41,855 nucleotides of DNA from Bacteroidota bacterium (lineage in GTDB: Bacteria; Bacteroidota; Ignavibacteria; UBA10030): contig JACVXU010000018.1 in NCBI GenBank assembly GCA_015661185.1, positions 1 through 41,855 of the forward strand, in the 5' to 3' direction. Below, in pieces: positions 28,991-33,135 of the stretch (position 1 is its first letter; every line of letters starts with the position of its first letter). The notes beneath the pieces were generated by a model that made no database searches, was not told the origin of the DNA, and worked only from the letters and a program-made list of their open reading frames with translations. The position numbers and the translations under genes were made by a program.

Positions 28991-29518
28991 ATGAAATTCA
29001 CCTTGCTTCTCTGCTCGCTGTTGGTGATCTCTTGCAGCAAGAAGGAAACAAAAGAACCGGCGCAGCCCGCGGCCCAGGACGACGTGCAAATCGAAGAAAT
29101 CATCGGATCTCTTTTTTCCGGCCTCTCGAACGCGTACAACGGCGCGGGAGTGAACACGGACAGCCTCATCGACGCGTATTATGAGAACGACGTCCGGTAT
29201 GTCACACCCTGGGGGTCGACAGAGCCGCTCGACACAACAAAGGCTCGTCTCCGGAATGCAATGCATCATATCAAAGACTACGATCATCGCGTCGAGATCG
29301 TGCAGGTCAAATCGTATGGCGATGCCGCGTATGCCTACTTCATACTTCGACAAAACTATCAGGTCGATGGCCAACTCCTTGAAGAATACCTCCCGACGAC
29401 GCTTGTCTTCGAGCGCCGCGGTTCCGGGTGGAAGATCGTGCATGCCCACCGCTCGACCGATTATCAGACGATCCAGCAGTATGTCGCGTTGCAGAAAAAA
29501 CGTGACGAAACCAAATGA
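28991..29518 (+). CDS. NTF2-like (SnoaL/DUF4440-type) lipoprotein
   Basis: A 175-residue lipoprotein: a short signal peptide with lipobox VISC (C15) followed by a charged linker SKKETKEPAQPAAQD. The rest has the pattern of the NTF2-like cone fold used by DUF4440/SnoaL proteins: an N-terminal helix, YYENDVRYVTPWG, and three late beta strands ending VFERRGSGWKIVHAHRSTD. Such domains bind small ligands or act as enzymes; no function can be given. AGGGGATGAA before the ATG at 28991 acts as the ribosome binding site. It probably stands alone, as the next gene is degraded. Confidence 0.85.
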   Translation: MKFTLLLCSLLVISCSKKETKEPAQPAAQDDVQIEEIIGSLFSGLSNAYNGAGVNTDSLIDAYYENDVRYVTPWGSTEPLDTTKARLRNAMHHIKDYDHRVEIVQVKSYGDAAYAYFILRQNYQVDGQLLEEYLPTTLVFERRGSGWKIVHAHRSTDYQTIQQYVALQKKRDETK

Positions 29519-29542
29519 TGCTTCTGGAATTGAGGGTCTGTG

Positions 29543-29808
29543 ATGGGACTGTTCGATAGGAAGACGGAGATTCTGGGCAAGAGCTCTTTCGGCAAGACAA
29601 AGCTGCCTCCGGGCCAAACCGCGACCGACAAGTTTCAAGTCCTGACCATGGCGGGCCAATGCGCGTGTTTACACCCCGCCGCTACGCATGGAAGGGGGCG
29701 AAATGGATCAAGGGAGTAGAATTCATGGCGAAGGACAAGCCTGGCTTTTGGGAAGAGAACGGATACAGTAATTCAGCCGATCCGTGGAAGGAAGAGAGAT
29801 TCTGGTGA
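29543..29808 (+). pseudogene. Remnant of a sulfite-oxidase-like molybdopterin oxidoreductase
   Basis: Two pieces of one gene lie together in different frames. The first, from the ATG at 29543, reads MGLFDRKTEILGKSSFG, then KLPPGQTATDKFQVLTMAG, which is the N-terminus of YuiH-type sulfite-oxidase-like proteins. It then shifts into unrelated residues and stops at about 29720. The second, in another frame, reads RRYAWKGAKWIKGVEFM, then DKPGFWEENGYSN and ADPWKEERFW, ending at TGA 29806-29808; this is the family's C-terminus. A full gene is about 600-640 bp, but only 266 bp remain, so the molybdopterin-binding core is lost. A 9-bp hairpin still follows. The deletion could be real or an assembly join. 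Confidence 0.8.
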
Positions 29809-29839: not shown

Positions 29840-29922
29840 CTTGAGAACCGCGGCCATGAGAAGTGAAAAGTATGCAGGTAAAGAGTGGATTGCAGGCAGT
29901 ATGTAGCAGACAGAATGACAGA

Positions 29923-30312
29923 ATGATCATAAATGCAAGGTTCGGTGATCTTGGAGTGCGTCCTTGGACAATCATAGCGACTCTTTTTCTTATGCTTGTG
30001 GGTTGCTCTAGCACGACAGAACTCACGGAGGCGGAACGCCAGAAACTCGATCCGCCGTTGCTAATGCTCCTGCGCGGCGAGGCCGTGGCCGAATCGGATT
30101 TCGACGCCAGCCTTCGGAAGGACGGAACTAGGGAGTATGCAGTCATCATAAGGTCGAAGAATGCTGATGAAGTGAAGTCGGCCGGAATCCAGGTGGGGAG
30201 CGTGTTCAGTGATGTCATCACAGCTCGTGTGACGATTGCAGAACTCAGGAGGATCCTGAGCCTATCATCGGTTCGCGCCGTCCAGACAAGCTCCAAGAAT
30301 TACCCGCATTAG
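29923..30312 (+). CDS. Lipoprotein resembling a free-standing subtilisin propeptide
   Basis: A 129-residue protein from the ATG at 29923 with a signal peptide and lipobox LVGC (C28), so predicted to be lipid-anchored in the envelope. An earlier in-frame ATG at 29863 would only lengthen the cytoplasmic tail. The mature part matches the propeptide region of the protease encoded 27 bases downstream: YAVIIRSKNADEVKSAGIQV against YDAIITTTNAAAVRAAGIHL, then GSVFSDVITARVT against NSVFGKIATARLT, and both end in NYP. It lacks the catalytic domain. By analogy with known free-standing I9-type propeptides it could inhibit or help fold the protease; this is inference. Confidence 0.75.
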   Translation: MIINARFGDLGVRPWTIIATLFLMLVGCSSTTELTEAERQKLDPPLLMLLRGEAVAESDFDASLRKDGTREYAVIIRSKNADEVKSAGIQVGSVFSDVITARVTIAELRRILSLSSVRAVQTSSKNYPH

Positions 30313-30339
30313 CACAGTCGCAGGAAAGGAAGACCGCTC

Positions 30340-33135
30340 ATGGTCAGAAGATCGCTCGTGCTCATTGGTGTCCTGATGTTGTCGCTTGGATTGGGGATTT
30401 GTTTCGGCCAGTCGCTCCAATCACAACTCACGCAGAAACTCCATCCGGCCTTTCAAGCTCTTGTTGCCAACGAATTACCGACCGCGGCAATCAAGGTGAT
30501 GGCGGATGGGCGCGGACCTTCCGGGATGACCAAAGAAGGGGAGCCTCTGTATGACGCGATCATAACGACCACGAACGCAGCTGCGGTGCGAGCCGCGGGT
30601 ATTCATCTCAACTCCGTTTTTGGAAAGATAGCGACTGCTCGTCTCACAAAACAACAACTATTAACCCTGGCACAATCGGATGCGGTTCAGTACCTCGATC
30701 CCGGTTCCATCAACTATCCTCAGATTGACCTCAGTGTGCCGGAGATAGGAGCTACCCTTCTCCATGCAGGATTCTTGAACAAGACGCCGTACAAAGGCAA
30801 AGGGGTCATAGTCGTCATCTACGACACGGGGATCGACTGGCGGCATCATGATTTCCGCGATCCGTCCGACACGACGAAAACGCGCATCTTGTCGATCTGG
30901 GATCAGACGCTTACGGCATCGTCCGGTTCGGGTGAAGCACCGCCCGCAGGATTTACCTACGGCGTAGAGTACACAAAACAGCAGATCGAGAACGAAATCG
31001 ACGGTTCACCGGCCAACTTTGTCCGCGAAAAAGATATCAATGGTCATGGCACTCACGTGGCAAGCACAGCGGCCGGGAATGGCAGTTCCCATTTCAACAA
31101 GTATATCGGCGTCGCGCCGGAGGCAGATATCGTGGTCGTGAAGGGTGGTGATGAATCGTTTTCTGAGTCCGGAATGATTAACGGCCTAACGTACGCGGCG
31201 AACAAGGCAGCCGCGCTCTCGAAGCCAGTCGTCGTTAACTGGAGCATTGGCGGCCAGACCGGCCCGCACGATGGAACCCGCGGCTATGAGGTTGCAGTCG
31301 ATAACTTTGTGCAGACACCCGGCCGGGTCGTCGCAATCTCGGCAGGCAATGACGGCGCTCGGATAATGCACTCAGAAGGAACGATTTCTTCCGGCGGTGC
31401 TGCCACGATATCCGTGAACGTGCCAACGTTCACGCCGACTGCAGGCGCGGATAATGACAAGTTCACGCTCGAAGTATGGTTCAATAGTAGCATTGGTTTG
31501 ACGGCCACGGCGACGTCTCCAAGTGGCATTTCTGTTTCTGCCTCGACCGATGCCAGTAGCAGCGCGGCGAACAACAACGATGGTTCGATCGATTTGTTCA
31601 ATTCCAAAGGGAGCAATGGAAACCGTTTCATTCAACTGGCCGTTCGCGACCGCGACACTTCAAAGGTGACGAAATCAGGGGTCTGGACACTGGCGCTTTC
31701 GTCGGTCACGAATGCTGCGGCATATGATGCATGGCTGTCATCCTCGACAGTGGGATCATCCACGGTGACGATCGTTGGCGGCAATGCACAAAAAACAGTT
31801 TCAAGTCCCGGCACCTCTTTTGGGGCCATCACCGTCGCTTCTTGGGTCACGAAAAACAGCTGGGTGTCGGTTAACGGCTCTGGCTATGTCTACTCGGGTA
31901 CAGCAAATCCGGTGCTCGGTTCGATTTCGACCTTCAGCAGCGTCGGACCAACCGCCGATGGTCGAACCAAACCCGACATCGCTGCCCCGGGGCAAGGGGT
32001 CTCGGCCGCCCTGTCGGGCTGGGCTGAGCCAGCGACTGCGATAACGCGAATCACGGCAGACGGGAAACACTTTGTTACGCAGGGCACCAGCATGGCGTCG
32101 CCGCATGTAGCCGGAGCGGCAGCCCTCTTGTTGGAGATCTCGAAGACAACCTCCGCTGCTCAAATCAAGTCGCTCTTGTCGACTACCGCGATTGTGGATG
32201 CATCGACTGGAACAGTGCCGAACACCACGTGGGGAAATGGGAAAATCGATTTGCTCAAAGCTGCAGCGAAGGCGCTCAACCCACAGGTAACAGTTCAACG
32301 TCAGATCCTGGCATACGATACCGACGGAACGAGCAACATCTTCTCTCAGTATCTTACCGGGACAACGAAATACGCATTGCGTTTCACGCCATCGATATCG
32401 GGAGAACTGACCGGGATGCAGTTCAATACCACGACCATCACTAACAGGTCAATCGTTGGTGCGGGGCCACTTATTTGTGAGGTATGGACGAATGTCGCCG
32501 GCAGTTCTGCGGGTGTCCCAGGTGTAAGAATCGGAAACACAGTTCAGTATGCATTCGCCCGACTCACGCAAGGGACGAATTCCTTCATCGACATGGTGCC
32601 GACCGGAGTTATAGTAACTGCAGGACAAGACTATCATCTCGTTGTCTCAACGGCCAATACCCAGGACACGATCAAGCTCAGGACGGATGTGAGCCCAGCC
32701 GTGCCCACAAACCGATCGTCGATCTACACAGGGGGTCGTTGGCTCAATTTGGTCGACCCGAGTTCCGGAATTTCGTCTCCTGCGAACCTTCGCATCAGGG
32801 CGGTCGTGACGTCTTCGTCAGGGCTCGTCTCTGCGCGGAATGAAACCGGCGTTCCTACGGTGTTCGAGCTCTTGCAGAACTACCCCAATCCTTTCAATCC
32901 TACAACCACGATTCGTTACAGCGTCCCGGCGCAAGGGCGTGTGCGCCTCCGTGTCTTCGACCTTGTCGGAAGGGAAGTGGCTTCGCTTGTTGACGAGGAG
33001 GAAGCGAGTGGCAGCTATCTCATCAATTGGCGGGGGACCGACAACTACGGCAGGTCCCTTGCGAGCGGCGTGTACTTCTACAAGCTGGATGGCCCGGGTC
33101 AGCAGATAACGAAGAAGTTGATATTGTTGAAGTGA
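30340..33135 (+). CDS. Subtilisin-like (S8) protease with T9SS sorting domain
   Basis: A 931-residue secreted serine protease. Order of parts: signal peptide (about 1-24), a propeptide ending near 130 at INYPQ, and the S8 catalytic domain with D162 (VVIYDTGIDW), H236 (NGHGTHVAS) and S584 (GTSMASPHVAG). The H-to-S distance of about 350 residues includes a beta-rich insertion. A beta-sandwich follows (about 650-830), then the type A type IX secretion signal from about 841 (LLQNYPNPFNPTTTIRYSVP) to the final KKLILLK. It is thus sent across the outer membrane by T9SS and probably attached to the surface or released. It forms a unit with the propeptide-like lipoprotein upstream and is followed by a strong hairpin. 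Confidence 0.95.
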   Translation: MVRRSLVLIGVLMLSLGLGICFGQSLQSQLTQKLHPAFQALVANELPTAAIKVMADGRGPSGMTKEGEPLYDAIITTTNAAAVRAAGIHLNSVFGKIATARLTKQQLLTLAQSDAVQYLDPGSINYPQIDLSVPEIGATLLHAGFLNKTPYKGKGVIVVIYDTGIDWRHHDFRDPSDTTKTRILSIWDQTLTASSGSGEAPPAGFTYGVEYTKQQIENEIDGSPANFVREKDINGHGTHVASTAAGNGSSHFNKYIGVAPEADIVVVKGGDESFSESGMINGLTYAANKAAALSKPVVVNWSIGGQTGPHDGTRGYEVAVDNFVQTPGRVVAISAGNDGARIMHSEGTISSGGAATISVNVPTFTPTAGADNDKFTLEVWFNSSIGLTATATSPSGISVSASTDASSSAANNNDGSIDLFNSKGSNGNRFIQLAVRDRDTSKVTKSGVWTLALSSVTNAAAYDAWLSSSTVGSSTVTIVGGNAQKTVSSPGTSFGAITVASWVTKNSWVSVNGSGYVYSGTANPVLGSISTFSSVGPTADGRTKPDIAAPGQGVSAALSGWAEPATAITRITADGKHFVTQGTSMASPHVAGAAALLLEISKTTSAAQIKSLLSTTAIVDASTGTVPNTTWGNGKIDLLKAAAKALNPQVTVQRQILAYDTDGTSNIFSQYLTGTTKYALRFTPSISGELTGMQFNTTTITNRSIVGAGPLICEVWTNVAGSSAGVPGVRIGNTVQYAFARLTQGTNSFIDMVPTGVIVTAGQDYHLVVSTANTQDTIKLRTDVSPAVPTNRSSIYTGGRWLNLVDPSSGISSPANLRIRAVVTSSSGLVSARNETGVPTVFELLQNYPNPFNPTTTIRYSVPAQGRVRLRVFDLVGREVASLVDEEEASGSYLINWRGTDNYGRSLASGVYFYKLDGPGQQITKKLILLK

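Follow-up and report, generated by a model that had tools for sequence, protein, structure and literature searches.

Stand-alone propeptide-like inhibitors of subtilases, the ASP/ORF2 pair of Aeromonas sobria and the potempins of Tannerella forsythia are each known separately. In T. forsythia, each KLIKK protease is preceded by a small lipoprotein, the potempin, which is reported to inhibit the coexpressed protease; the six potempin open reading frames (ORFs) are described as having no significant mutual similarity, and their partners include metalloproteases (PMC4404884, PMC7296668). ORF2 is encoded next to ASP and is reported to be the chaperone that this protease requires, as well as an inhibitor of it (half-maximal inhibitory concentration 84.3 nM), its C-terminal residues lying at the catalytic site (PMC5638518). 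The stand-alone inhibitors of the I9 type comprise POIA1, the yeast proteinase B inhibitor and Arabidopsis SPI-1, along with the parasite proteins TgMIC5 and SUB1-ProM, the latter encoded beside subtilase genes; those named in that account are eukaryotic, and none is described there as a lipoprotein or as the partner of a type IX-exported enzyme (PMC6993865). Here we describe a gene pair in a 41,855-nucleotide stretch of DNA from a member of the Ignavibacteria, phylum Bacteroidota (contig JACVXU010000018.1 of assembly GCA_015661185.1; the window), in which a putative lipoprotein resembling a subtilase propeptide is encoded directly ahead of a subtilase of the type IX secretion system (T9SS) type, and we propose that the lipoprotein is probably an envelope-bound inhibitor of that subtilase.

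The upstream ORF (29923–30312 on the + strand, as are all features of the pair) encodes 129 amino acids, from an ATG at 29923 to a TAG at 30310–30312; an in-frame GTG at 29863 provides for an alternative, longer ORF. Its first 84 nucleotides (29923–30006) read as a signal peptide with the lipobox LMLVGC, the codon of Cys28 being 30004–30006, and by these features the product would be a bacterial lipoprotein, anchored by lipid. Of 55 short ORFs examined for it, 51 have a lipobox cysteine. The gap of 27 nucleotides (30313–30339) holds no promoter-like or terminator-like match among those sought, and is followed, in the same frame, by the subtilase gene (30340–33135; 931 amino acids, peptidase family S8). 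The potempins share this layout, in which the gene of a small lipoprotein immediately precedes that of a T9SS-type protease, and are thus a precedent for an arrangement that the original prediction had regarded as unfamiliar. However, the window protease terminates in KKLILLK, and with KLILLK rather than KLIKK at its end the pair is not classed with the potempins; by their description the potempins are also set apart from what we find here, namely a single homologous family with the predicted propeptide fold, with S8 partners, in several classes.

The lipoprotein had been proposed to be homologous to the propeptide of the adjacent protease, and BLASTP against the protease N-terminus bears this out with 37 identities in 121 positions (E 2e-12). 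All of the landmarks on which that proposal was based are found in both proteins (YAVII/YDAII, AGI/AGI, SVF/SVF, TARVT/TARLT, and NYPH/NYPQ, lipoprotein first). The alignment of about 60 residues that contained them was too short, in that the N-terminal KLDPP of the lipoprotein also aligns with KLHPA of the protease, which extends the homologous stretch to about 100 residues; the lysine of this segment is kept in 49 of 50 lipoproteins. The profile–profile comparison suggested at the time, made with 50 lipoproteins and 19 propeptides, gives a probability of 99.2 and an E-value of 2.6e-19. Searched with the lipoprotein, the whole genome (4.33 Mb) returns the lipoprotein itself, the adjoining protease (2e-7) and one chance-level match. 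The similarity between the lipoprotein and the propeptide is therefore far above chance, and the lipoprotein is related detectably to the propeptide of its own neighbour (approximately 30409–30735), from which it differs in being a separate gene with a predicted lipid anchor of its own. Existing models do not capture the family: no Pfam or NCBIfam model exceeds its curated cut-off for the window lipoprotein, and the families listed for 50 of its members include no I9 model. Against the sequences of the Protein Data Bank (PDB), the propeptide profile matches no prodomain and the lipoprotein profile matches prodomains at a non-significant level only (1spb_P, E 0.46). Neither a scan of viral contigs for lipoprotein relatives nor tblastn against phage returned a match.

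The mature lipoprotein, modelled by AlphaFold2 with 50 homologues (predicted local distance difference test, pLDDT, 82.9; predicted template modelling score, pTM, 0.75), is predicted to adopt the I9-like fold of a subtilase prodomain. An N-terminal helical segment, which carries KLDPP (30028–30072), precedes elements in the order beta-alpha-beta-beta-alpha-beta (mature residues 43–95; 30130–30288). The top matches in VIA-align are 8c4x_B (Z 8.0, root-mean-square deviation 2.4 over 74 residues) and 3afg_A (Z 8.0, 3.1 over 79), followed by the prodomain of PCSK9 (Z 6.6), the subtilisin prosegments 3cnq_P (Z 6.4) and 1spb_P (Z 6.1), the stand-alone inhibitor POIA1 (1v5i_B, Z 5.0, 2.2 over 60), and ORF2, the trans-acting chaperone and inhibitor of Aeromonas ASP (3wqb_B, Z 4.7). 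The best PDB matches in Foldseek are likewise subtilase prodomains, so the fold expected from the original prediction, and not a foreign one, is the fold that the model takes.

The last 12 residues of the lipoprotein (30274–30309), which follow a conserved valine and end in KNYPH, reach the register of the cleavage site of subtilisin propeptides. Residue 102, the final one of the model, falls opposite the ends of 1spb_P and 3cnq_P (residue 77), POIA1 (76) and 8c4x_B (81), and opposite residue 152 of the PCSK9 prodomain. In the profile match to 1spb_P, the prosegment of subtilisin BPN' (E 0.46, as noted above), the conserved valine pairs with residue 66 of a chain of 78, 12 from its end. Across the family, 12 residues follow this valine in 20 of 50 lipoproteins, and 10–16 do so in 46. 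A free C-terminus at the propeptide cut register suits a product-like inhibitor. In addition, the tails are matched to the partners: the similarity per residue between the tail of a lipoprotein and that of its partner's propeptide is 0.74, against 0.07 with the propeptide tails of others (46 pairs; 0 of 10000 permutations), and 0.84 against 0.14 for 30 representatives. The corresponding contrast in the core is smaller (0.59 against 0.34). When clades are taken one by one, the signal of the tails is clear for the part of the class outside the window's clade and family f5 (1 of 10000 permutations). A fused model of a pair from another locus (L099; pLDDT 90.2, pTM 0.83), with blocks of 94–98 over lipoprotein-domain residues 661–720 and strand or bridge residues in the tail, is not counted as evidence of docking; its VIA-align rows are almost confined to the catalytic domain.

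We consider it probable, at roughly 0.65, that the lipoprotein is a lipid-anchored inhibitor that acts in trans on the active site of the partner subtilase and shields the envelope. The binding, inhibition, membrane side and protective purpose that we infer for it would be as follows. Exported by Sec and anchored by lipid, its domain would bind the mature catalytic domain at the docking site of the enzyme's own propeptide, and the free C-terminal tail would occupy the non-primed substrate cleft in the manner of a cleavage product, by which the partner would be blocked in trans. The tail of a propeptide goes into the groove of the active site, and stand-alone mimics are inhibitory (PMC6993865); inhibition of subtilases in this way is described for propeptides and their mimics alike (PMC6993865, PMC5638518), and the placement of the C-terminal residues of ORF2 at the catalytic site is what we would expect of the lipoprotein tail. 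Such an inhibitor would protect the periplasm and outer membrane from a protease that becomes active too early or lingers near the cell, a role that appears likely because the lipoprotein would be fixed to the envelope, whereas the protease would go to the surface or beyond.

The relatives of the pair were surveyed at three scales: the lipoprotein itself matches 55 of 150 related genomes at E ≤ 1, many of these matches being propeptides or chance; a profile of 24 lipoproteins, run at E ≤ 0.1 on 391 genomes of the class, hits 100 of them; and one built from 50 lipoproteins, run at E ≤ 0.001 on 395 genomes of the phylum, hits 50, the last two counts including matches to protease propeptides. From the match lists we selected 75 loci, some weak matches not being taken, which together with the window make 76 regions. 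Short ORFs are those under 260 amino acids that match the lipoprotein profile; the pair counts omit L047 (a duplicate of L067), and the alignment of lipoproteins omits L046 (a fragment), the second ORF of L062 (a protease's own propeptide), L064 (truncated), L115 (a near-copy of L114), L121, L123 and L133. As the original prediction anticipated, the pair recurs widely: 52 of 57 short ORFs adjoin an S8 ORF in the same orientation, at a spacing of -86 to +454 nucleotides. The five that do not are a fragment at a contig edge (L046), the propeptide of a frame-broken protease (the second ORF of L062), an ORF whose contig stops 0.5 kb further on, inside an apparent protease start (L100), the second of two tandem copies (L110), and L121, which has no cysteine and is the sole clear exception. 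Beyond the class, an S8 ORF adjoins 13 of the 16 short ORFs, one of the 13 being broken, while L180, L182 and L183 have no S8 neighbour and L170 has no evident lipobox. Since the genome of the window has only about five S8 ORFs in 4.33 Mb, chance adjacency is negligible beside this rate of pairing and was rejected. Counted conversely, 59 S8 ORFs are flanked on each side by 700 or more nucleotides of contig, and 43 of them have a lipoprotein neighbour, although these loci were picked for their matches and the figure is not an unbiased rate.

The lipoprotein gene usually comes first, and in family f14 (L068, L099, L101, L102) it follows the protease. Adjacency held in both gene orders and across families, together with tails matched to the partner that point to a cognate enzyme, makes it very improbable that the lipoprotein guards against foreign subtilases (of a host, predator or competitor) and that its place beside the protease is historical, even though activity on other enzymes is known for stand-alone propeptide-like inhibitors.

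Several loci depart from the simple pair. Two lipoproteins have apparently two tandem propeptide-like domains, each preceding an S8 protease (L123:4590-5267 and L133:5154-5786); elsewhere two tandem lipoprotein genes of the family stand ahead of one protease (L110:2756-3802), or a single lipoprotein is followed by two tandem S8 proteases (L056:7540-13822). In L064:7812-8105 and L181:5160-5459 the lipoprotein gene looks broken and the adjoining protease frame is open. The stand-alone profile matches of L182:3674-3910 and L183:3125-3361, of 78 amino acids, in which no signal peptide is visible by eye and which lack an S8 neighbour, are possibly cytosolic relatives.

The lipoprotein is under purifying selection, with dN/dS (the ratio of nonsynonymous to synonymous substitution rates) of 0.08–0.26 in nine of ten comparisons, the tenth being saturated. 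When 52 lipoprotein domains and 67 propeptide domains are placed in one tree, which has few columns and many open forks, the lipoproteins cluster apart from the propeptides, with 3 label changes against a mean of 39 in 500 shuffles, and a constraint that unites all lipoproteins gives a slightly better likelihood (p-AU, from the approximately unbiased test, 0.613). The last two figures make a single origin possible and leave repeated recent origin unsupported; in our preferred reading the lipoprotein is a dedicated and ancient paralogue of the subtilase propeptide, possibly with one origin. A truncated duplicate of the protease, or a functionless pseudogene, would also resemble the protease N-terminus, and broken-looking copies do occur in two relatives (L064 and L181). 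Purifying selection, a lipobox of its own, wide recurrence with conservation in several classes, and the separate cluster in the tree led us to reject a fresh duplicate or pseudogene, which is barely credible.

The window protease has an S8 catalytic domain with an insertion (30796–32289, end approximate; motifs DTGID, GHGTH, and GTSMASP) and a C-terminal domain (CTD) of the type IX kind, Por_Secre_tail (PF18962; 32881–33123), matched at 29.7 bits against a cut-off of 27. Ten divergent partners all match both S8 and Por_Secre_tail, the latter over its cut-off in nine. SprA and PorU are found over cut-off in the genome of the window, as are about 70 CTD matches, which makes surface export plausible for the protease, a cargo of the T9SS as judged from its sorting domain and these genes. 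A tether or export checkpoint, by which the lipoprotein would retain the folded zymogen, or the mature enzyme, close to the translocon at the outer membrane and inhibit nothing, would agree with the near-universal lipobox and with the T9SS type of the partners. We regard it as quite improbable, in that the protease already has a CTD, the genome has PorU for surface attachment, and the register of the lipoprotein C-terminus matches occupation of an active site. An acidic signal for surface export after the lipobox cysteine was found in 0 of 51 lipoproteins (at least three acidic residues in positions +2 to +7), a rule that comes from other lineages, so that the lipoprotein may face either side of the membrane.

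T9SS proteases are described as folding in the periplasm to zymogens held by the prodomain, and folding there has been proposed for T9SS cargo (PMC10202324). A membrane-tethered second copy of the propeptide might accordingly aid the folding of the subtilase before export, as ORF2 does for ASP, which is not known to have a propeptide of its own; ORF2 shares the fold of the lipoprotein, adjoins its protease gene, and both chaperones and inhibits. However, the partners here retain 149–225 residues before the catalytic Asp in every protease in which the motif was located (four S8 ORFs have no motif in range), with a recognisable propeptide in many, including the window protease, so that an extra copy is unneeded for the role of the propeptide. 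Because the partner has its own propeptide, the lipoprotein is not classed as an external chaperone of the ASP/ORF2 type, although it may act in a similar way; its lipobox is a further difference. Moreover, related proteases with the same propeptide exist without a lipoprotein neighbour. Where the original prediction offered an immunity-like inhibitor or a foldase, the anatomy fits the former and the latter is less apt; we consider a foldase unlikely, and a role as foldase only is disfavoured.

We note several observations that weigh against an inhibitor of the partner protease. Although the best Foldseek matches are prodomains, none reaches E ≤ 0.001 (best 4.6e-3), and Z-scores of 8 or less are rated middling by VIA-align's own note. 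Four of 50 lipoprotein tails are 18–25 residues long and extend beyond the cut register. The residue four positions after the conserved valine corresponds, by our count of the register, to one that caps a helix in known complexes (PMC6993865). An acidic residue stands there in 53 of 67 propeptides as against 28 of 50 lipoproteins; the window lipoprotein has glutamine. The tail signal is weak in the window's clade (854 of 10000 permutations) and in f5 (1205 of 10000), so that part of the match to the partner may reflect shared descent. Finally, 16 of the 59 S8 ORFs in the match-selected loci, one of them a frame fragment, have no lipoprotein neighbour.

The surroundings of the pair vary. Upstream in the window lies a second small lipoprotein-like ORF with a SnoaL-like domain (28991–29518; PF13474), and a similar ORF of 173 amino acids, judged by eye, stands ahead of the pair in L053. 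Between the two lipoprotein ORFs is the remnant of an oxidoreductase molybdopterin-binding gene (29540–29805; PF00174), of which the intact copy in L050 encodes 202 amino acids; about 330 nucleotides are gone in the window, and the junction shows an overlap of about 10 nucleotides, such as a deletion between short repeats would leave. In L060 an intact homologue is directly upstream of the lipoprotein. The pair often stands behind a UvrA-like gene in family f6 (L057, L058, L059, L065) and behind a SecA-like gene in f5 (L037, L043, L048), both named by eye from their N-termini.

A literature search, with subscription papers mostly outside it, found no description of a lipid-anchored propeptide homologue in this combination. 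What appears to be new is one homologous family of lipid-anchored, propeptide-derived proteins, whose partners in several classes are T9SS subtilases with a propeptide still in place. We regard as evenly poised the broader reading that this is an envelope immunity system of the phylum, in which the propeptide was copied once, early in the T9SS-bearing lineage, into a lipid-anchored, co-evolving safety catch; each enzyme would then have two inhibitors, one covalent and single-use, the other free and membrane-bound, with two-domain or tandem versions in some lineages. Few systems address how type IX exporters of broad-specificity proteases protect their own envelope, the potempins of one oral species being the example that we found, and a homologous two-gene module that recurs across classes would be a testable answer recognisable from sequence. 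It would also give a role to lipoproteins that lie outside every Pfam and NCBIfam model, and the family points to ready-made, selective inhibitors of subtilisins. The pair also suggests that in bacteria a propeptide may have become a regulator in its own right, as is described for the stand-alone inhibitors of eukaryotes.

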